Below, in pieces: positions 16,701 to 48,325 of a DNA stretch of 58,140 nt. The translations under genes were made by a program, and so were the position numbers. Every line of letters starts with the position of its first letter. The stretch's first letter is position 1. The notes beneath the pieces are model-generated. The model ran no database searches, was not told the DNA's origin, and worked only from the letters and a program-made list of their open reading frames with translations. This DNA comes from Verrucomicrobiota bacterium (GTDB taxonomy: Bacteria > Verrucomicrobiota > Verrucomicrobiia > Limisphaerales > UBA9464). The stretch lies in contig CANIZL010000035.1 of the NCBI GenBank assembly GCA_947471985.1, positions 1 through 58,140 of the forward strand, in the 5' to 3' direction.

Positions 16701-19013
16701 GTGCCGTGGACGACCGACCGGGGCAATCCGAGTCCGCCCGGTTTTGTCGTGGTATCCCATTTCCAATGCCCGGCCGTGCCCGCTAAATCTCCGTCTGTGA
16801 TTTCGCTGGCTGATCAAGCGGCAGGCCCGGCCGTGACAGATCTGGTAAAACAGGTGGAGGAGATTTTTTCGGCCACGGGTATTTTTTCGCAGGCCAAGAA
16901 TTTTGAATTCCGGCCCGAGCAGCAGGCCATGGCTGTCGCCGTGGCCCGTGCGCTGGTGGATCAGGGGCATCTTTTGGTGGAAGCCGGCACCGGGGTAGGC
17001 AAAAGCTTCGGGTATCTGGTGCCCGCCATCCTATTTGCTGTGGCCCGGAAAAAGAAAGCGGTCATTTCCACCCACACCATCAATCTGCAGGAGCAGCTGG
17101 TGGAGAAGGATCTCCCGATTCTCCGCAAGGTATTGCAGGGATTGTTGACCCCGGTGGAGTTCAGCTTTGCGATGTTGAAGGGGCGCGGCAATTACCTCTG
17201 CACCCGGCGGCTGCAGAAAGCCCTGCAACAGTCGGAGGCCCTTTTTACCTCGCCCGAAGCCAGTGAGCTCAAACGCATTCACGAATGGAGTTTGGAAACC
17301 ACCGACGGTTCGTTGAGTGATTTTGCCGAGGAACCCGATCCGAAGGTTTGGGAACATGTCTGTTCCGAGCGGGGCTTGTGCACGCCGAAGAAGTGCGGCT
17401 TCGCCAGCGATTTCGCCAAGACCGGGCACGTGTGCTTTTTCCAGCGGGCCCGGCAACGCATTCTTTCGGCGGACGTCCTCGTGGTGAATCACACGTTGTT
17501 TTTCACCCTGCTCAATGGGGTCGACGAGGAGCAGGAGGGGGGTGTGCTGTTCAAGAATGACTTCGTCATCTTTGATGAGGCCCACACGGTGGAGCAGGTC
17601 GCCGCCCGGCATATCGGCATGAATGTCAGCAGCGGCGCGATCCGCTATGCCTTGAACCGTCTCTGGAACCCACGCACAGAAAAGGGGTTGCTGGCCACGC
17701 TTCGGCAGGGGCCGGCGGTGAAGTTGGTGGCGGACGTCCTGCACCAGGCGGACGATTTTTTTCAGCGGGTTGAGCAAAGTTGTGATGAGTTGGTGAAGGA
17801 GCCGGGTTCTTCGGGTTCGTCCGAAACGCCACCGTCACGCCCCGGCGAGTCGGGTGGTGGCACCGCTCCGCGTGGGGGCGGAAAATTTCGCCCCGCGGAA
17901 TGGCGGGAGCTGCGGATTCGTCGACCGGATCTGGTCGAGGATATCATGACGCTACCGCTGCAACGGCTCCGGGAATCGGTTCACGAACTGGTGCAGCAGA
18001 CTGACGACCGCGAGACGGGTGAGGAATTGCTGGAATGCAATCGGCGGCTGGGCGATCTGCGCGGGGCGATCCAGTTGTTTCTAAAGCAGGCGGAAGAGGA
18101 ACACGTGTATTGGGTGGAACGGACCGGTCGCACCCAACGGACTTTGACGTTGAATGCCGCGCCGGTGGACGTGGCGGACTTCCTCCGCGAACGCCTGTTT
18201 GCCTCGGGTACCAGCGTGGTCATGACCAGTGCGACGTTGTCCGTCAAATCGGCCGAACGCCGGGCCCCGGAAGCCCCGGAAGGTGAGTCACGGGCGAATG
18301 CCGCCCCGGAACGGAAGGGGCAGGGGAGGCGGTCGGGGCCGGCCCTGGCCTATTTTGCGACCCGCGTCGGGGGCGAAGCGGCGGTGCAGTTGCAATTGGG
18401 CTCGCCGTTTGATTATTCGCGGCAAATGCGGGTGTACGTCGCCGGCAAGATGCCGGATCCGCGGGATCCCGGCTACGAGGACGCGCTGGTGGCCCAGATA
18501 GAGCATTTCGTCGCACTCACACACGGGAAAGCCTTTGTGCTGTTTACGAATTCGAAGCTCATGCAGGCGGTGGCGGGCCGGATGGAGGCTTTTTTTCATC
18601 GTCTCGGCCTGGAGTGTTACGTACAGGGCACGGGAACCCCGCGGGCGACCATGCTGGAGAAATTCAAGGCCAACGTGGATTCGGTGCTGTTTGGCCTGGA
18701 TTCCTTCTGGCAGGGGGTGGATGTGCCAGGGGAGGCCTTGAGCAACGTGATCATCACCCGGCTGCCGTTTGCGGTCCCGGATCATCCATTGATTGAAGCG
18801 CGGTTGGAGCGGATTGAGGCGGCGGGGGGGAATGCCTTTGCCGATTTCAGTCTGCCGGAGGCGGTTTTGAAGTTCCGCCAGGGCGTGGGCCGGTTGATTC
18901 GATCCCGCACGGATGAGGGGATTGTGGTCCTGCTGGACAATCGGGTGCTGACCAAACGATACGGGCAGGCGTTTCTGGATGCCGTCCCCAAGTGCCCGGT
19001 GGAAATTGTTTAG
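16701..19013 (+). CDS. dinG: DinG-type ATP-dependent DNA helicase
   Basis: An XPD/DinG-type superfamily 2 helicase (5'-3' unwinding, DNA repair and R-loop or replication-conflict resolution), up to 770 residues. Walker A is EAGTGVGKSFGYL, and Walker B is a canonical DEAH box in VIFDEAHTVEQ. Between them lie cysteines suited to a [4Fe-4S] cluster (YLCTRR, HVCSERGLC, PKKCGF, HVCFFQ). The C-terminal motifs include LFGLDSFWQGVDVPGEAL and QGVGRLIRSRTDEG. Two low-complexity Gly/Ser/Pro- and Arg/Ala-rich linkers (about 17800-17890 and 18250-18340) enlarge it relative to E. coli DinG. The start is uncertain: GTG at 16701, 16749 or 16797 are all in frame and none has a clear ribosome-binding site; 16797 would leave a usual-length N-terminus. 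Confidence 0.88.
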   Translation: MPWTTDRGNPSPPGFVVVSHFQCPAVPAKSPSVISLADQAAGPAVTDLVKQVEEIFSATGIFSQAKNFEFRPEQQAMAVAVARALVDQGHLLVEAGTGVGKSFGYLVPAILFAVARKKKAVISTHTINLQEQLVEKDLPILRKVLQGLLTPVEFSFAMLKGRGNYLCTRRLQKALQQSEALFTSPEASELKRIHEWSLETTDGSLSDFAEEPDPKVWEHVCSERGLCTPKKCGFASDFAKTGHVCFFQRARQRILSADVLVVNHTLFFTLLNGVDEEQEGGVLFKNDFVIFDEAHTVEQVAARHIGMNVSSGAIRYALNRLWNPRTEKGLLATLRQGPAVKLVADVLHQADDFFQRVEQSCDELVKEPGSSGSSETPPSRPGESGGGTAPRGGGKFRPAEWRELRIRRPDLVEDIMTLPLQRLRESVHELVQQTDDRETGEELLECNRRLGDLRGAIQLFLKQAEEEHVYWVERTGRTQRTLTLNAAPVDVADFLRERLFASGTSVVMTSATLSVKSAERRAPEAPEGESRANAAPERKGQGRRSGPALAYFATRVGGEAAVQLQLGSPFDYSRQMRVYVAGKMPDPRDPGYEDALVAQIEHFVALTHGKAFVLFTNSKLMQAVAGRMEAFFHRLGLECYVQGTGTPRATMLEKFKANVDSVLFGLDSFWQGVDVPGEALSNVIITRLPFAVPDHPLIEARLERIEAAGGNAFADFSLPEAVLKFRQGVGRLIRSRTDEGIVVLLDNRVLTKRYGQAFLDAVPKCPVEIV

Positions 19014-40311: not shown

Positions 40312-43300
40312 TCAGGGGGACAGAACTTGATAGTACTGCGCGGCTTCGATGGGAGTAATGTTCACGCTGATGGTCCGGGCCGCTCCGCCGGGTTCCGTGG
40401 CCGTGGGTATCCAAACTCCGCTGCCAAGCGCGGTCCGACGGCGGACGGTGTAGCTTCGATTGGCTTCGGCCGCGAAACTGAGCAGCAGGCTACCGTTGGT
40501 GTTCCGAGTCAGCGTCAGCACGGGAGACGTTGGAGTGGTCGCCGCTTGGACGACCACGCGGAGCTGATCCACGGCCGTCAATAAGGAATCATTGACGGAG
40601 AATTGAAGATCATACGTTCCCGCGGCGCTGAAACTGGCGCTGGTTTGCGGTGAATTGGCCGAGGTAAAGGTTACGGTTCCCGGCCCGACCAGCTTGCTCC
40701 ACACAAAGCTCGGCACTCCGGGATTGATCGGAAGTCCGTCTTCCGTGAAACTCGCCAGCAGCTGGGCGGCCACCGGTAGCGTCACGTTTTGGTCGGCCCC
40801 GGCGTCGGCGGTGGGCGCACGGTTTGAAGTTTGCGCGATCCCCGTCAACGACAGGTCGAGGCCCAGATCCGAACTGGAGGCGTTGGCTTGATGCATCTCC
40901 ACTGCCAGGGTGTTTTCGCCCGTCCGCAGTCGTGCGGGTGAGATCGGCTGCGTCAGGGGCGTCGTTTCGTCCCCGCCGCCAATGGCCGTGGACGCCAGGG
41001 TGGTGAAGAGAATCTCCCCCTCCGGCAGGTTGTTGCGAAAAACCTCGTCGCCGTTCAGATAGACGACCACGCCATCATCACGGATCACCTGGAGCGTCAG
41101 GGCGGTCAACGCGGCAGCATCCAAGAGATTGAATTTTAGTCGGAAGTAGGCGGTGGGAATGCGATTCCCCGAAGAATCGCCATTGATCAGGGTCACCTCA
41201 CCATCGCCACCGTAACCAAGTCGGGCGGGACCGGATTTCCATCCCGCGGGCTCGACGTAGCCGGGGGCCCGCCAGGCGGTACCGAGATCCTGGCGCTGGT
41301 CGAAGTAGCGCCAGGTGGAGCCAAAGGGTACGAGGGTCACGGCCGAGCCGGGGCGGTCGAGGGTCACCAATAGTTGATCCCGGGTCGCCCGTTGCCCGTC
41401 GCTGACCGAGAGTTGCAGGACAAAGGTTCCGGCCCCAGGCAGGCGGGCGGTCGTGGTGGCGGCATTGGGATTGTCGAAGGTCACCCCCGGCGGACCGCCG
41501 GTTTGCGACCACGTGAAGGCCAGAGGTCCGCCCGGCAGTCCATCGTCCGTTGCTGTTCCCGATAGAGCGACCGCCACGGGGAAGTTCAAGGCGCTAAATT
41601 GTTGGCTGGGTCCGGCACTTACCTGCGGCGGTCGATTGCCATCGTTTTCCAAACCGGGGGAGGGCGTTAGAACGCTCGCACGCCAGTTGGCAGGATCATT
41701 CCCGTACGCGGTCACGTTGCGTCGTTCCAAGGATGCCCCCCCGCGATTGGCTCCGACGCGGTTGGTTGGCCACGGCGACTTGTCGTCGTAGCGGACAACA
41801 TCCACGGCCGGGTAGGGAATGACGTATCCCGTCACCTGTCCAAACTGGTTGGTGAGGGGATCGGGTGCGTCGGGACGCTGTAGCTCCAGTCGTTCGCCAT
41901 TGGGCTGGAGCACCCCTGAGTAGGGGCCCAGAACCAGGACGTCTCCGGGGAGCCCGTGGCGGGCGCGGAAGGTGGCTGGATCGCCACCGACGACCACCGC
42001 CAGGCCGCCGGGCAGCAAGGTCAATCCGCCGGGAAATTCGAACCCGAGGCCTTCGATGCGCCACCGGTTGGTGGAGAACTCTGGATGGAAGAGCGGGACA
42101 TTGGTGGACGCGATGTTTTTGATTTCGACGAACGGCAATTCGCCCGGGGCCGGCGCCGCGAGAATCTCGTTGAAGACCACAGGGCCCACTTGTGGGCCGG
42201 CATTCACGAGCCCGAGGGTTGGACGGATCTGCAGGGGGAAATCCACGTCACCCGCTGAATTGGTATAGCGACCAAAACTCACGCCGTTGGGGGCCGCCCC
42301 AAAGGCGAGTCCGTCGCTATATCCGGTCGGCAGTCCCGTGGCGTCTGCGGAATAGAGAAAGACCGCGTCGCCGTGGGAGCTCAGGCGAAAGGCGTTCGTA
42401 CCCAGGGAGGGTTGGTTGAACTGACTTTCGTCCACCACCCGGTATCCCTGGGAGGGAATAATTGTGGCGGGCGGAAAGCGATACTTTCTGGGTTGGGTGC
42501 GGTCGTCCGAGAGATACCAATTGCTGATATCCGCCGGCGCGGGGCCCGGATTAAAAAGTTCGATGGAATCCAGCTGGGGCGGATCCGTGTGGGTGAGCAC
42601 CTCGTTGACCAAAATCACGGCTACATCGACCGGCGGATCATCCATCCCGGGCGAGCCGCCGATGGCGGAGCTGGCCCGCCATCGGGCGGGATCGTCCGCG
42701 TTGCCGTTGGAATTGGGATCGCGGGGTACGAGGGAGAAGCCCAGGCCATCCGCGCTGCCGGGCCACGGAGCTTGGTTGTCGTAGCTCACCTCAAATTCGG
42801 TCGTGCCGACGGCGTGGGTGAGGGTAATACGCTCGCCGGAGTCACTGAGTTTGCCGGTGAATTGACCGAACGGGCGAACGCCGGGATAGCGATTGGTAAA
42901 GGCGTCGGAGTTGCCCGCCAGCACCGCGAATTTTCCCGGAGCCAGCCGGGTGCCGCGGGGGAAGACAAAATTCACCGCGTTGGTGACGCGGACGCCACTG
43001 AGATCCAGTTCCACGGTTCCCGTGTTTTTTAGTTCCAGGAACTCCAGATCATCGCGGTTCACGCCGGGCGTCGCCGCCGGCCGATACATGATCTCCGTGA
43101 TCAAGAGATCGTGAAATGTCTGGATGATGTTGAAATCAAACTCCACCAGGGCCGACCAGTTGTTGCCGTCGCGGGTCCGGGCCTTGACGGTGACGGATTC
43201 ATTGAGGGTGATTGGGGAGGTGTAGCTGCTCGCTCCCAGATAAATGCCGCCGCCGATCTGCCGTGGATCCTCGCCGTTGATCGTGTAGAGAATCTGGCCG

Positions 43301-45591
43301 GCAGGAGCGCTGAGGGTAAGGCTGGTGCCTCGGGCTGTGGGGCCTCCGGTTTGACTGAACGCGGGCGCGGCGACGCTGGGATAGAGGGATTTGGCCCGTA
43401 GTTGGGTGAGCAGGGTGGCGGTTCGGGTTTGCAGAAACGATGTCTGCACGTTTCGGACGGCCGTAAACCAGTCGGCCTGGGTGAGCGGGGTGAGCGGGGT
43501 GGCCCGTTTGCTGTCCCCCCAGCGGGCGGATTCCGCGATTACCGGGAGCTGAATCTCGTTGGTCCGGGCATTGAACCGGCTGAGGACCTGCGCGGTGGTT
43601 AGTGGTCCGTTATTAAACAGCGCCCGCTGGACGCGGTCGGCAAAACGCAGTCGGTACTCCGCATTGACGATCAATCGTTGGTGGAGGTATTGCGGATTGC
43701 TGTAGACCACGCTGTCGTTCCCTGCGGTGAATGGGCCGGTGCGATCAATGCTGGGTTCGTCCGCCTTCAAGGTGTGTTCGGCGTCATGGGAAATGAAGCG
43801 GAAGCCCCCGTTGGCGCCGCTGTGATCACGAAGCCCGTACCAATTGTTGGGCCGTGAGTCTCCCAGAAACCGGGATACCGGGGCGTCGTAATTGCCGCCG
43901 TAGTAAATCACGAGCAGATAGTCGATCAGGTTGTCGATATCGAGCAGCGTCTCGCCGGCGGGGTCGGGGGTGCCGTCCGCCCGACGGCTTTCGAGCGCGA
44001 AATAGATGGCGTCATTGGTGATGCCAGCGCGGCAGCGGTTGTAGAGCCGGGTCCAAGCCGCCAGGGTGCCGTCGGTGGCATTGATGGCGTAGGGGCCGGC
44101 TTCCACCTTGATGACGTCGTAGTCGGCGGCCTTCCCGCCAAAGTAGGTGGCCCCAAAATTCGCTTCGGCCCGTTCGTCGGTATTGAACAAGCCCCAATAG
44201 ACTCCGTTGATGTACAGATGGGCGTAGATGCCGCGTTCGCCTTGTTGGCCGAGGGCCAATTGCGCATCCCGCGAAAACTGGTCGCGTACAAAAATTCCGA
44301 CGGGATCCCCTTGGAAGCTCCAGGAATAATTCTGAAAGGTGCGCAGATCGAATGCATCGAACTCTTCCGTGCCACCCGGGTGCAAGGGATACCGCAGCTT
44401 GGACGGACCGTAGGCGTCACGGAAGAAAAAGCGGAAAGCGTGCTTCGGATTGCCGGTGTCGCGGCTGAAGCCTCCGCGGATGCGCACTCCTGCGTTGGCT
44501 TGAAAACCGGTCACGCCATCCGTTCGAATGAATTCCAGGGAGCAGGCCCGCTCCCAATCTCGGCCGTCCTGCCCGGGATTCGCGTAGATGCCGGTGCTCC
44601 CAAACAGGTTGGTGAGATCCGTTACGAGGCTGAAGCTGGGCAGGGCCTTGAGTGCCGGAATGATCTTGTCCCGGTACGCCGCGGCATCCACGACCCGCGG
44701 GTCCATGCCATAATTGATCGAACTCACCGTCCCTGGGTTGGGCCATTCCGAACTGGGCGCCGCACCGTTCGTCTGCTGCCGGATGACATCGGCGAGAAAC
44801 AGATAAGTCTGAGTGTCGACATTGGACGGTTGCAGTCCTGCTCGGAACGCTGCCGCTCGCACGACCATCGTGTGGGTGATCCGGAGCGGTGCGCTATAGA
44901 GGAAACCGGTCGTCGCGGTGGGCGTCGCTCCGTTGGTGGTGTAACGAATGGCCGCGTTTGCGGTCGCCGTGGTAATCGTCAGATCGAACGGCGTTTCGTA
45001 GAAGCCCCGATCCTGGCTGAATTTGGTGTCGGCCACGAAATCGGAGAACCCGCCCGCGTTGGCCGCCAGGGGAGTCGGTGGATTGAAATAGAAACGTTGC
45101 CCGGCGCGGAGGCCGTAGGAGATGTCTGCCTCCTGGCGGGGGTAGGGCGCGAACTCGGTGCTGGGCGTGGTGTTCTCCGGGCCGAAAAGTGCCAGATACC
45201 CCCCGTCGGTGGCGAGGCTGAAACTGGTATGCAGCGGTGCCCCGGGCGAACTGCGATTTTTGCCTGACGCAAACACCAGCAGGTAGCCGCCGGCGGGTAC
45301 GTTGGTGGAGGGCAGGAGCCACAGCCGTGGCTGGGTGGGATCGTCCGTGAGCGACCAGCCGCCCAGATTTACCGGTTGATCCGAGGTGTTCTGGAGTTCG
45401 ATCCAGTCGCTGGAATCGCCGTCGCCGTCGAGCAGCCCCGCGCGGTTGTTGGCGAGGAATTCGGTGATGGCCATCTGCGCGTGGGTGGTGAGGGGTGAGA
45501 GCGCCAGCAGCCCACCCATCAGTATTCCGGCCCGGAACGGACGGCGTACGGGCCATTTCGGCTGCGCGGCACGGCAGAAATTCGTAAACAT
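40312..45591 (-). CDS. Giant exported lamin-tail/CotH-kinase multidomain protein
   Basis: A 1759-residue secreted protein. After a signal peptide ending LTTHAQ, domains appear in order: a lamin-tail domain (about 38-150, MAITEFLANN, SSDWIELQN); a chitobiase-C-terminal-like repeat (about 190-260, AAIRYTTNGATPT); a CotH-like kinase region (about 280-640, VRIRGGFSRDTGNPKHAFR, YINGVYWGLFNTDERAE); a second chitobiase-type repeat; three further lamin-tail domains (LLITEIMYRP, VILVNEVLTHTD, PVVFNEILAAPAPGEL); and two PKD/Ig-like blocks toward the C-terminus. The CotH fold is a divergent kinase; a cell-surface role is inferred. ATG at 45591 is used because only this start yields a signal peptide. No sorting tail was seen. 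The gene converges on the kinase gene. Confidence 0.88.
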   Translation of the reverse strand: MFTNFCRAAQPKWPVRRPFRAGILMGGLLALSPLTTHAQMAITEFLANNRAGLLDGDGDSSDWIELQNTSDQPVNLGGWSLTDDPTQPRLWLLPSTNVPAGGYLLVFASGKNRSSPGAPLHTSFSLATDGGYLALFGPENTTPSTEFAPYPRQEADISYGLRAGQRFYFNPPTPLAANAGGFSDFVADTKFSQDRGFYETPFDLTITTATANAAIRYTTNGATPTATTGFLYSAPLRITHTMVVRAAAFRAGLQPSNVDTQTYLFLADVIRQQTNGAAPSSEWPNPGTVSSINYGMDPRVVDAAAYRDKIIPALKALPSFSLVTDLTNLFGSTGIYANPGQDGRDWERACSLEFIRTDGVTGFQANAGVRIRGGFSRDTGNPKHAFRFFFRDAYGPSKLRYPLHPGGTEEFDAFDLRTFQNYSWSFQGDPVGIFVRDQFSRDAQLALGQQGERGIYAHLYINGVYWGLFNTDERAEANFGATYFGGKAADYDVIKVEAGPYAINATDGTLAAWTRLYNRCRAGITNDAIYFALESRRADGTPDPAGETLLDIDNLIDYLLVIYYGGNYDAPVSRFLGDSRPNNWYGLRDHSGANGGFRFISHDAEHTLKADEPSIDRTGPFTAGNDSVVYSNPQYLHQRLIVNAEYRLRFADRVQRALFNNGPLTTAQVLSRFNARTNEIQLPVIAESARWGDSKRATPLTPLTQADWFTAVRNVQTSFLQTRTATLLTQLRAKSLYPSVAAPAFSQTGGPTARGTSLTLSAPAGQILYTINGEDPRQIGGGIYLGASSYTSPITLNESVTVKARTRDGNNWSALVEFDFNIIQTFHDLLITEIMYRPAATPGVNRDDLEFLELKNTGTVELDLSGVRVTNAVNFVFPRGTRLAPGKFAVLAGNSDAFTNRYPGVRPFGQFTGKLSDSGERITLTHAVGTTEFEVSYDNQAPWPGSADGLGFSLVPRDPNSNGNADDPARWRASSAIGGSPGMDDPPVDVAVILVNEVLTHTDPPQLDSIELFNPGPAPADISNWYLSDDRTQPRKYRFPPATIIPSQGYRVVDESQFNQPSLGTNAFRLSSHGDAVFLYSADATGLPTGYSDGLAFGAAPNGVSFGRYTNSAGDVDFPLQIRPTLGLVNAGPQVGPVVFNEILAAPAPGELPFVEIKNIASTNVPLFHPEFSTNRWRIEGLGFEFPGGLTLLPGGLAVVVGGDPATFRARHGLPGDVLVLGPYSGVLQPNGERLELQRPDAPDPLTNQFGQVTGYVIPYPAVDVVRYDDKSPWPTNRVGANRGGASLERRNVTAYGNDPANWRASVLTPSPGLENDGNRPPQVSAGPSQQFSALNFPVAVALSGTATDDGLPGGPLAFTWSQTGGPPGVTFDNPNAATTTARLPGAGTFVLQLSVSDGQRATRDQLLVTLDRPGSAVTLVPFGSTWRYFDQRQDLGTAWRAPGYVEPAGWKSGPARLGYGGDGEVTLINGDSSGNRIPTAYFRLKFNLLDAAALTALTLQVIRDDGVVVYLNGDEVFRNNLPEGEILFTTLASTAIGGGDETTPLTQPISPARLRTGENTLAVEMHQANASSSDLGLDLSLTGIAQTSNRAPTADAGADQNVTLPVAAQLLASFTEDGLPINPGVPSFVWSKLVGPGTVTFTSANSPQTSASFSAAGTYDLQFSVNDSLLTAVDQLRVVVQAATTPTSPVLTLTRNTNGSLLLSFAAEANRSYTVRRRTALGSGVWIPTATEPGGAARTISVNITPIEAAQYYQVLSP

Positions 45592-45782
45592 GGGATGCCG
45601 GAGGCTAGGCAGTTTCCGGGCCAATGCGAGTTCTGCTGCGGGAATTTCCCGAACAAAACGGGTCTTTCCTGCGTGACATACCCGCTTGCAACCAGTCAAT
45701 TGGGGTGGCGTCACCAGCGGTTGACAGTCTTGCGGCTGGTCCTTAGCGTGCGCCCGATTTAACACAAAACACGCGCTGTATC

Positions 45783-46538
45783 ATGTTGCGTCCCGTTCTT
45801 ATTTTTGCGTTCCTGGCCTCCCTTGCGGCGGCTCTCACTGCTTTCCTCATTACCAAGCCAAAGGTGGAGGAGATTAACACCACCCTGGCCTCAACCCGGG
45901 ATCAGCTTTCCAAGTCACAGGAGTCGGACCGGAAAAACACGGCCGAGGCCAAGGCCAACAAGGCGGCCAAGGAAGAGGCGGAGAAGCAGCTCGCCGGCAC
46001 CAAGGAAGAGCTGACCAAGGTCACGGCCAAGGCCGATGAGCTCGAGACCCGCTCGACCAAGTTGGCGGCGGATCTCGCCAAGACCACCTCGGATCGGAAC
46101 GATGCCCGGAACGAGCTGGCCCAATGGGTCGCGACGGGATCCAAACCCAGCGACATCAATGCCTTGAAGGTCGGCAAGAAGGCGGCCGAGGACGAACGCG
46201 ACAATCTGGCGGCCGAAAAAATCGTGTTCCTGCGCAATCTGCAATCCCTGCAGGCCAAGCTCGATCAGTACGTGAATCCCGACAAGGAAGTGCCGCTGCC
46301 GATCGGTCTCGCTGGCCGGGTCGTGGCGGTGAATCCCAAGTGGAATTTCGTTATGCTCGACATTGGCGCCAATGCGGGTGTCCTCGAACGCGGCCAGCTG
46401 AAGGTGCACCGCAATGGTAAGCTCGTGGCGAAGGTGCGCATTGTCTCCGTGACCCCCACGTCGGCCATCGCCAACGTCATGCCGGAATGGCATCAACCCG
46501 GGCAGGAAATTGCCGAGGGTGATTCGGTCCTGTTCTGA
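45783..46538 (+). CDS. Membrane-anchored coiled-coil protein with C-terminal beta domain
   Basis: A 251-residue protein. An N-terminal helix (MLRPVLIFAFLASLAAALTAFLI) anchors it, probably leaving the rest outside. A long Lys/Glu/Ala-rich coiled coil spans about residues 28-175 (EEAEKQLAGTKEELTKVTAK; RNDARNELAQWVATG). The last 75 residues form a beta-type domain: LAGRVVAVNPKWNFVMLDIG, NGKLVAKVRIVSVTPTSA and the ending GQEIAEGDSVLF, recalling the beta domain of MreC-like or efflux-adaptor proteins. No family name can be assigned. It starts 22 bp before a 55-residue lipoprotein gene and shares its terminator, so the two form an operon. Role in the envelope is inferred. Confidence 0.65.
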   Translation: MLRPVLIFAFLASLAAALTAFLITKPKVEEINTTLASTRDQLSKSQESDRKNTAEAKANKAAKEEAEKQLAGTKEELTKVTAKADELETRSTKLAADLAKTTSDRNDARNELAQWVATGSKPSDINALKVGKKAAEDERDNLAAEKIVFLRNLQSLQAKLDQYVNPDKEVPLPIGLAGRVVAVNPKWNFVMLDIGANAGVLERGQLKVHRNGKLVAKVRIVSVTPTSAIANVMPEWHQPGQEIAEGDSVLF

Positions 46539-46560
46539 ACGATTCCTTCCCGCTCCCGTT

Positions 46561-46728
46561 ATGAAAAATCGCTGGTATCGCGGTCTGCTGCTGCTGGTGA
46601 CGCTTCTCGGTTTGGTTGGGGGGGCGGCCGGCTGCCGCACCGGGGGCGACGATCTGAGTGAGCGCCCGTGGAATACACCGAAGAGCTGGGAGAACGGCCT
46701 TCCCTCCGCGCTCACTGAAGGACGCTAG
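46561..46728 (+). CDS. 55-residue lipoprotein of unknown function
   Basis: A very small protein: a basic start (MKNRWYRG), a hydrophobic core (LLLLVTLLGLVGGAAG) and a Cys at residue 25 in GAAGC, a workable lipobox. The mature part is only about 30 residues (RTGGDDLSERPWNTPKSWEN plus GLPSALTEGR). The gene lies 22 bp after the coiled-coil gene and is followed by a strong terminator, which supports a real coding unit. Function is unknown; it may be a partner or surface anchor of the neighbour. Confidence 0.6.
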   Translation: MKNRWYRGLLLLVTLLGLVGGAAGCRTGGDDLSERPWNTPKSWENGLPSALTEGR

Positions 46729-46752
46729 GCGGCCAACAGGGTTTCCCAGAAT

Positions 46753-46780
46753 GGCATCCGGAGTTCCGGATGCCTTTTTT
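46753..46780 (+). terminator. Strong rho-independent terminator after the coiled-coil/lipoprotein operon
   Basis: GGCATCCGGA pairs perfectly with TCCGGATGCC (10 bp) around a GT loop and is followed by TTTTTT. It starts 25 bp after the lipoprotein stop. An ATG at 46751 that could begin the symporter reads into this hairpin, so the symporter's own start is probably further down. Confidence 0.95.
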
Positions 46781-46813
46781 GTTCCTCCGCACGGTCAGGT
46801 TCACTTTTCGCTC

Positions 46814-48325
46814 GTGTCGCCTCTGATCATTTTTGCCAGTGTGGCCGGCTACTTCGCCGCCCTGCTGGGGGTCGCGTGGTGGACCGGACGCCGGGCCGAT
46901 GCCGGTGGGTATTTTCTGGGCAACCGGGCATCGCCGTGGTGGGCGGTGGCGTTGGGATTGATTGGGGATTCCCTATCCGGTGTCTCCTACATTTCCGTTC
47001 CTGGAGCCGTGGGAGTTGGCCGGTGGTACTATCTCCAAGTCGTTCTGGGCTACGTCATCGGCTACGTGATCATCATTCACCTCCTGCTGCCGATGTACTA
47101 CCGGCTCAACCTGACCTCGATTTACGGCTATTTGGGCATTCGCTTTGATCGTGCTGCCCAACGGACGGGGGCAGCCTTCTTCATCTTGTCGCGACTGTTG
47201 GGGGCCGCAGCCCGGCTCTATCTCGCGGTGAACGTCTTTCAGGTTTTCGTCCTGAACCCTTTCGGGGTGCCCTTTGCCGTCACATCGGTAATGATCATTG
47301 GTTTGATTCTCCTCTACACCGTGCGGGGAGGGATCAAGACGCTGGTTTGGACGGATCTGTTTCAGAGCGCGTTTCTGGTCCTGGGTGTCGTCCTGAGCGC
47401 CGGACTGATTGCGCGCCAGTTGGGGCTGGGACCGGTTTCGCTGGTACAAATGATCGCCAGCAGTCCTCTGAGTGAGGTTTTCGATGGGCGCTGGCGTGAA
47501 ACGACCTTCTGGGCGAAGCAATTGTTGGCCGGCGCCGCAATCGCGCTCGTCATGACCGGCCTCGATCAGAACACCATGCAGAAAAACCTGTCGTGCCGAT
47601 CGCTACGGGACGCGCAGAAAAACCTCTACACGTTCACTGCGGTCATGGTGGCGGTCAGTGTGGCCATTCTTTCCCTGGGTGTCCTGCTGCAGGAATATGC
47701 GACCCGCCAGGGAATCCCGCTCCCGGAACGGTCGGATGACCTTTTTCCGATGCTCGCTTTCCGCCATCTCGGGCCATGGGCGGGCTTGGTCTTCATCATT
47801 GGGCTGACGGCGGCGACGTTCAACTCGGCGGATGCCGTGCTCACCACCTTGACCACGAGTTTCTGTCTGGATTGTCTCGGGTGGGACGCCGAGCCGGTGG
47901 GTGATTCCGCCGCCCGGCTTCGTCAAGATTCCTGGCGTCAGCGGATTCACTTGGGTTTTGCCGTCCTCCTGCTGCTGGTGCTGCTGCTGATCGGCCGGCT
48001 GGCGACCGGTCCCGTAATCAACCTGGTGCTCAAACTGGCCGGCTATACGGGCGGTCCGCTTTTGGCTCTTTTCGGCTTGGGGCTTTTCACTCGGGTGCAG
48101 CTCCGGGGGCTGGCCATCCCGGCGGTTTGCCTGGGAAGCGCCGGGTTTTGTGCCGGGTTGGAGTTTTGGATGAACGGACGCCCGCAGGGCTATCGGTTTG
48201 GCTTTGAACTCCTGCTGCTCAACGCGCTGATTACCGCTGGTGGGCTCTGGGCGGTCTCCGTGATTCAGTCCGTCGCCCGTGGCGACCAAGGTGGTACGGG
48301 CACCAAGGCCTCGCACGCGGCCTAG
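46814..48325 (+). CDS. Sodium:solute symporter family protein
   Basis: A transporter of about 503 residues, SSS/SLC5 type, with around 13 transmembrane segments. N-terminal features include FASVAGYFAALLGVAWWTGR followed by GGYFLGNRASPWWAVALGLIGDSLSGVSYISVPG, the sodium-binding first-helix region of the family. Later segments carry DLFQSAFLVLGVVLSAG and TMQKNLSCRSLRDAQKNLYT. Substrate is not predictable; relatives move sugars, proline, panthothenate or organic acids with Na+. GTG at 46814 is preferred to ATG at 46751, which lies in the upstream terminator. It overlaps the convergent glycosyltransferase by 4 bp. Confidence 0.85.
   Translation: MSPLIIFASVAGYFAALLGVAWWTGRRADAGGYFLGNRASPWWAVALGLIGDSLSGVSYISVPGAVGVGRWYYLQVVLGYVIGYVIIIHLLLPMYYRLNLTSIYGYLGIRFDRAAQRTGAAFFILSRLLGAAARLYLAVNVFQVFVLNPFGVPFAVTSVMIIGLILLYTVRGGIKTLVWTDLFQSAFLVLGVVLSAGLIARQLGLGPVSLVQMIASSPLSEVFDGRWRETTFWAKQLLAGAAIALVMTGLDQNTMQKNLSCRSLRDAQKNLYTFTAVMVAVSVAILSLGVLLQEYATRQGIPLPERSDDLFPMLAFRHLGPWAGLVFIIGLTAATFNSADAVLTTLTTSFCLDCLGWDAEPVGDSAARLRQDSWRQRIHLGFAVLLLLVLLLIGRLATGPVINLVLKLAGYTGGPLLALFGLGLFTRVQLRGLAIPAVCLGSAGFCAGLEFWMNGRPQGYRFGFELLLLNALITAGGLWAVSVIQSVARGDQGGTGTKASHAA

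Follow-up and report, generated by a model that had tools for sequence, protein, structure and literature searches.

A conserved pair of genes for a coiled-coil protein and a very small lipoprotein in Verrucomicrobiota

A gene for a coiled-coil protein that is predicted to end in a beta barrel (designated here as CC) and, directly downstream, a gene for a very small lipoprotein (lip) occur together in Verrucomicrobiota, and there is hardly any doubt that they form a real, conserved gene pair. Both genes are present in the window, that is, the whole stretch of DNA analyzed here (58,140 nucleotides). In the bacterial family of the window, the lipoprotein was found in 45 of 50 sampled genomes, in 27 of the 28 genomes of good quality and in all nine genera. 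CC lies immediately upstream and on the same strand in each of the 30 family loci examined, window included; a stricter script recognized it in 28 of these. Over the last 21 codons of lip, with all pairs of 30 sequences pooled, a pN of 0.104 and a pS of 0.702 were obtained (pN/pS = 0.15). Because of the frequency of the lipoprotein, the constant position of CC and the low pN/pS, the arrangement is not ascribed to chance. Both products are very probably located in the cell envelope, and the pair may have a role in cell shape or envelope integrity.

Organization of the locus

The pair is encoded on the plus strand, and its features are listed in Table 1. The layout put forward in the original prediction, two genes with a gap of 22 bp, a lipoprotein of 55 residues and a strong terminator, was confirmed to the base.

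Table 1. Position of the CC and lip genes, their predicted protein features and the terminator within the window
Feature	Position	Strand	Description
CC gene	45783..46538	+	ATG, 251 aa; predicted signal-anchored coiled coil with C-terminal beta barrel
Predicted N-terminal membrane anchor, about residues 4-24	45792..45854	+	Hydrophobic stretch read from the sequence
Predicted coiled-coil stalk, residues 27-164	45861..46274	+	Model helices 3-118 and 122-164
C-terminal beta-barrel domain, residues 174-251	46302..46535	+	Structure matches and domain profile
Intergenic gap	46539..46560	+	22 bp
lip gene	46561..46728	+	ATG, 55-aa prolipoprotein, mature 31 aa
Lipoprotein signal peptide, residues 1-24	46561..46632	+	Precedes Cys25, predicted to be lipidated
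Lipobox Cys25 (in GAAGC)	46633..46635	+	Leaves 31 mature residues
Conserved core RPWNTPKSWE, residues 35-44	46663..46692	+	Alignment of 44 diverse homologues
Intrinsic terminator	46753..46780	+	Hairpin 46753-46774 (9-bp stem, 7 G-C pairs, loop of 4), then TTTTTT

A 62-nt region comprising the terminator has a folding energy of -26.9 kcal/mol (z = -3.7), and none of 200 shuffled sequences was as good. Among the named loci described below, a terminator was detected up to 150 bp past the lip stop codon in 16 of 62, versus 7 of 308 random positions. This excess suggests that the pair likely forms a separate transcription unit in some members of the family. A search for a sigma-70 consensus promoter at the window locus found none. 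The gap between CC and lip, as parsed by script, ranges from 5 to 77 bp within the family; elsewhere the two genes often overlap or are separated by 1-9 bp.

The pair is flanked by a large minus-strand gene on one side and, from our own reading of the translation, a symporter-like gene on the other. The minus-strand open reading frame (40312-45765, 1817 aa) reads to us as a secreted protein with lamin-tail-like repeats; its real start codon is probably downstream of the listed one. The first listed start of the symporter-like frame (46658-48325, plus strand) overlaps lip in another frame, and its real start is probably near 46800.

Distribution of the pair and separability of the two genes

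Profile searches covered the phylum Verrucomicrobiota. A lipoprotein profile derived from 14 family members matched 139 of 387 genomes, and at 26 of 29 distant loci obtained with it a coiled-coil gene was present just upstream. Using a broader profile (44 sequences), the lipoprotein was detected in 296 of the 387 genomes, corresponding to 240/311 genomes of good quality and 167/198 genera. The barrel domain of CC was matched in 331/387 genomes (266/311 of good quality, 176/198 genera), a figure that gives the maximum for CC, since a further, lipoprotein-like open reading frame encodes the barrel as well. That frame, in the genome of the window (L127; G000:C93, around 18344-18523), has 134 residues and carries the same kind of barrel without a coiled coil. 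It is a second, weaker barrel relative in a genome that has one copy of CC and a single lipoprotein match.

To describe the arrangement phylum-wide, 60 loci from 42 families besides that of the window were compiled, 41 picked for the lipoprotein and 19 for CC. The two genes are adjacent in 47 of the 60 loci and in 37 of the 42 families (families counted by hand), where adjacent means on the same strand within about 600 bp, with lipoproteins beside CC accepted from about 15 bits upward; those with the lowest scores (L255, L256, L258 and L260) rest partly on their position. Thus, the pair is conserved together in other Verrucomicrobiota, as had been anticipated, with adjacency in 30/30 loci of the family and 47/60 beyond it. 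Nine loci, two of them from 0.9-Mb genomes, have a lipoprotein without an adjacent CC. CC without a recognized lipoprotein was seen in four; in one of these (genus g12), a diverged lipoprotein of 68 aa was identified by eye at the expected position.

A collection of named genomes was scanned whole with two family-type peptide patterns, yielding 119 candidates, of which 65 were confirmed. All of these come from records that bear the label Verrucomicrobia or a name within that group, apart from L113 and L118, which are labelled Proteobacteria. Among the 62 loci that could be parsed, 60 have CC, the other two (L093, L104) lying too near a contig end; the lipoprotein script missed the remaining three of the 65 (L096, L106, L125). 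The pair-bearing records include two labelled Proteobacteria bacterium (L113 and L118) and six labelled Akkermansia muciniphila (L067, L074, L083, L084, L090 and L119). Their pairs resemble those of Verrucomicrobia or Limisphaerales records, which suggests that these draft genomes carry wrong labels.

The barrel profile left 56 genomes without a match. Of these, 35 were checked (20 listed without a barrel match and 15 of families f31 and f24, which are absent among the listed barrel matches). A lipoprotein match is present in every one of the 35. In some, a CC may exist that has diverged beyond recognition by the profile; by eye, no CC-like frame was present upstream of the lipoprotein in four loci (L210, L214, L222, L233). 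In the two 0.9-Mb genomes (L195 in G085, L196 in G106) the lipoprotein is likewise kept, with no CC upstream and no barrel match in the genome. These observations indicate that the lipoprotein can do without CC, and that the pair is usual but separable. The description of the locus as a dedicated module is hence right in that the two genes usually go together, but too strong, as several lineages keep the lipoprotein alone and a few keep CC alone.

Retention of the lipoprotein in all 35 genomes that lack a barrel match, the two of 0.9 Mb included, suggests that it has a role of its own. It is in line with an alternative in which the pair is an accessory of outer-membrane biogenesis: the lipoprotein would serve an outer-membrane machine (BAM, Lpt or Lol) as a small subunit or as a regulator, with CC as a periplasmic helper that is sometimes lost. 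Small lipoproteins serving such machines exist. Furthermore, in four loci (L062, L095, L115 and L116) BamA-like and Skp-like genes are located upstream of the pair in the same direction (checked against Pfam in L115 and L062). However, in at least L115 and L116 a gene on the opposite strand parts the Skp-like gene from CC, the BamA/Skp link was not seen in the other lineages examined, and the lipoprotein matched no protein family at an E-value up to 0.001. We consider this explanation rather unlikely.

Properties of the two proteins

The mature lipoprotein of the window, CRTGGDDLSERPWNTPKSWENGLPSALTEGR, has 31 residues, Cys25 included, in agreement with the predicted size of about 30; across the lipoproteins, mature lengths range from 28 to 37 residues. 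Lipoboxes direct lipidation, and the signal peptide, lipobox and cysteine expected of an Lgt/LspA substrate are all present, so that the protein is predicted to be lipidated. In an alignment of 44 diverse lipoproteins, Met1, Gly24, Cys25, Pro36, Trp37, Pro40, Trp43 and Pro48 are invariant and Glu44 is conserved in at least 90%. The finder script demanded the lipobox cysteine and PW[NSGT]-x-P-x-x-W, and the invariance of the cysteine, Pro36, Trp37, Pro40 and Trp43 is therefore partly by construction; within this alignment, Gly24, Pro48 and the nearly invariant Glu44 alone are unaffected by this requirement. In distant lineages, core variants occur with PQN, PHN or without the second tryptophan. 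Apart from a short acidic linker and a PWN-x-P-x-x-WE motif, the mature protein contains little. With about 31 residues, it approaches the lower size limit of a conserved docking element, and the two tryptophans can readily be targeted by mutation.

For so short a gene, a leader peptide or a chance reading frame without a working protein has to be considered, but the small size is the one point in favor of it. The pN/pS given above shows that the lip frame is under selection as protein and, on this evidence, translated, and the invariant proline, arginine and glycine positions are encoded by up to four codons. In addition, the signal peptide, the lipobox and the core turn up repeatedly across the phylum. 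At the level of sequence, a chance frame is refuted, and we give this possibility practically no weight.

The residue at position +2 after the lipidated cysteine is alanine, arginine or lysine in 73 of 92 distinct lipoproteins and aspartate in one (a 93rd could not be parsed). Under the E. coli +2 rule, which is not established for this phylum, these residues favor the outer membrane.

CC is predicted to be anchored by its N-terminus. Among 116 homologues, counted with duplicates, 97 have a more positive charge on the N-terminal than on the C-terminal flank of the anchor, which fits an N-in, C-out orientation. The AlphaFold2 model of CC has a mean pLDDT of 87.9 and a pTM of 0.41, with strands between residues 177 and 250. 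The roughly 135 helical residues of the stalk would measure about 20 nm if straight. All 30 distinct family sequences are 250 or 251 aa long, and identity to CC of the window is only 34-44% in the six family homologues compared. Phylum-wide the length varies, from 249 to 377 aa as parsed, with some loci longer.

The modelled barrel was compared with solved structures. With VIA-align, the closest were 8z5n chain 0 (LPHT ring, presumably FlgT; Z 11.2, rmsd 2.3 over 74 residues) and FlgT 3w1e (Z 10.2, rmsd 1.9 over 70 residues). ATP synthase barrels come close to these values (Z about 10), indicating that the fold is a widespread one. MreC was absent among the 50 matches listed. Foldseek matched the barrel to both MreC and FlgT, with an E-value of 1.6e-4 to 2j5u_A and, for MreC 2qf5, an rmsd of 2.5 over 59 columns. 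At the sequence level, CC of the window had no match to the Pfam families MreC (PF04085) and FlgT_C (PF16538) up to an E-value of 1. Among 40 homologue barrels, nine matched PF04085 at an E-value up to 0.1 (best 0.002, 18.4 bits against a cut-off of 28) and nine matched PF16538 (13.6 to 24.9 bits, cut-off 27), so that CC of the window and all homologues scored stay below the cut-off of either family. Matches to NCBIfam models, some of them for MreC, were sub-threshold, and no convincing match emerged when solved structures were searched by sequence. On the model, the barrel appears to have a fold of the MreC and FlgT C-terminal type; a shared fold does not prove function. The MreC-like beta end of the original prediction accordingly holds for the fold, as found with Foldseek, but not for the sequence, and as a label it is one-sided, since the FlgT C-terminal domain matches at least equally well.

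CC resembles MreC (PF04085) in its predicted combination of an inner-membrane anchor, a periplasmic coiled coil and a beta barrel. It differs in having one barrel domain of about 78 residues, whereas the MreC crystal structure, as described in the part of the report available to us, has two (PMC8804602). The C-terminal domain of FlgT (PF16538), a component of the flagellar basal body, is the best structural match; in CC, however, this domain sits on a membrane-anchored coiled coil, and homologue scores stay below the Pfam cut-off. We also considered whether CC is simply the MreC of its genome. The window genome has a separate MreC (G000:C68:21822-22271, 135.9 bits) about 400 bp past MreB, and profile comparison of CC with Pfam-checked MreC proteins from loci of genus g7 gave probabilities of 4.1% and 1.2%. 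This candidate was ruled out.

In several loci the CC stop codon is in frame with lip. Reading the stop as a residue in 13 of them yields an artificial single-chain fusion with an alignment of 13 rows. AlphaFold2 predicted no contact between the two parts of this fusion, and the mature lipoprotein had a pLDDT of about 41-55 with no regular element. With so few rows this is a weak test, which speaks neither for nor against binding.

Braun lipoprotein (Lpp) is a very small outer-membrane lipoprotein whose C-terminal lysine links it to peptidoglycan. The lip product is alike in being very small and in its probable outer-membrane location, and could be a tether of the same kind between outer membrane and peptidoglycan. 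Unlike Lpp, it has no predicted helix and no conserved C-terminal lysine, and comes with a companion gene for a predicted inner-membrane coiled-coil protein. The mature part has 28 to 37 residues, the fusion model contains no helix of at least four residues in it, and the window lipoprotein ends in arginine. A terminal lysine was found in L013 (duplicate L068) and L123, while most other sequences read end in arginine or other residues. A tether of this kind has been proposed for a different lipoprotein of Verrucomicrobiota, WP_009060351 of Methylacidiphilum (PMC10260701). According to the passages of that report available to us, it is highly expressed, was detected in the membrane and peptidoglycan fractions and is proposed to link the outer membrane to peptidoglycan; its C-terminal stretch of 53 residues has been reported from Verrucomicrobiota alone. 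With 139 aa and a gene beside those for an amylase and galT, it differs, by its description there, from the lip product in length and gene neighbors; the authors highlight its C-terminal tyrosine and lysine. That lip encodes an Lpp-like tether appears very improbable.

Neither window protein reached a Pfam cut-off, and among the 44 lipoproteins there was one weak Pfam match (DUF6491, E-value 0.0074). The literature search found no paper on the pair. Signature proteins of the superphylum have been reported (PMC3444138), and the pair is not among the content of the passages available to us. The claim that the two genes match no known pair stands as far as tested. That a pair kept in a large part of a phylum has no Pfam family marks a gap in the knowledge of diderm envelopes.

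Genomic context and possible function

In genus g7, all 14 family loci that could be tested have mreB on the strand of the pair, about 120 to 340 bp downstream of it. Sixteen named loci with the g7 type of CC, from genomes partly the same as those of the family set, also carry the pair before mreB. Where the sequence reaches, mreC and genes for PBP2-like, RodA-like and RNase E/G proteins come next (one representative of each neighbor gene confirmed with Pfam). Together with the barrel fold common to CC and MreC, this arrangement speaks for an accessory role in the Rod complex (elongasome), where CC would be a second MreC-like scaffold working with MreB, MreC, PBP2 and RodA, and the lipoprotein would couple wall growth to the outer membrane. 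However, the mreB link was seen in genus g7 only, the other family loci having been read about 1.5 kb to each side, and in three named loci (L066, L067, L099) a terminator separates lip from mreB.

If CC served the Rod complex only, it should vanish along with MreC. In genus g12, a Pfam search found MreC over the cut-off in none of 23 genomes, but the barrel was matched in all 23; two CC genes in tandem were read in each of L187 and L188. G070, the only genome of g12 searched for MreB, has it. Conversely, MreB and MreC are both present in each of the 35 genomes that were checked among those lacking a barrel match. A barrel kept without detectable MreC, and MreB and MreC where no barrel was matched, make a dedicated Rod role less likely, and a function in the Rod complex, once our first choice, was demoted to a rival that we now hold to be improbable. 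A part in wall growth may still be compatible with both results. As a separate observation, in the one g12 locus read around mreB (L269; G070:C1:776000-788000), an RNase E/G-like gene directly follows mreB.

Beyond these lineages, the nearest open reading frames of the 60 phylum-wide loci were scanned (109 of 117, with seven long frames and one short frame left out). The commonest neighbors in the other families are pgi and genes for an RsmI-type methylase and a semialdehyde dehydrogenase; among the 25 of 68 neighbor families listed, TP_methylase accounts for 10/109, PGI for 9/109 and semialdehyde dehydrogenase for 8/109. The commonest families listed are thus housekeeping families rather than families of envelope assembly, and indicate no enrichment of envelope genes beside the pair. 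The pair stays constant while its outer neighbors change between lineages.

We tentatively favor a function as an envelope scaffold or connector, at somewhat less than even chances. The N-terminus would anchor CC in the inner membrane, and the coiled-coil stalk would project into the periplasm and cross much of it, bearing at the far end a putative barrel of the FlgT C-terminal and MreC type. The lipoprotein, probably in the outer membrane, would present a docking peptide in the form of its PWN-x-P-x-x-WE motif; the barrel would bind either this motif or a partner shared with the lipoprotein. The chances that the two proteins are physical partners seem about evenly balanced. Such a function is consistent with the conservation and adjacency of the genes, the selection on the motif, the +2 residues, the constant length of CC within the family and the confident model. 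FlgT and MreC work in the periplasm, and the barrel fold common to both, like the envelope genes beside the pair in two lineages, points the same way. Counting against a connector are the lack of a predicted contact in the fusion, the separability of the genes, the variable length of CC across the phylum and the housekeeping neighbors.

In its most specific form, which we think rather unlikely, the connector would be largely specific to Verrucomicrobiota and join inner and outer membranes, with CC as a ruler whose barrel grips the PWN-x-P-x-x-WE tail of the lipoprotein. If so, it would do part of the work done elsewhere by other tethers, and the lipoprotein would be among the smallest conserved ones known. 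The portions available to us of a saturating transposon study of Verrucomicrobium spinosum, a species with established targeted mutagenesis, report 100 essential proteins of unknown function (PMC12283558), and whether orthologues of CC and lip are essential may already be answerable from those data.

Tandem copies of either gene were also observed. In two family genomes (G006:C26 and G008:C64), two lipoprotein genes lie in tandem about 200 bp apart. Tandem CC copies are present in L187-L191, L197, L198, L235, L254, L263 and L264 (families f4, f9, f26 and f29), and most of these loci have one lipoprotein gene after the CC copies.
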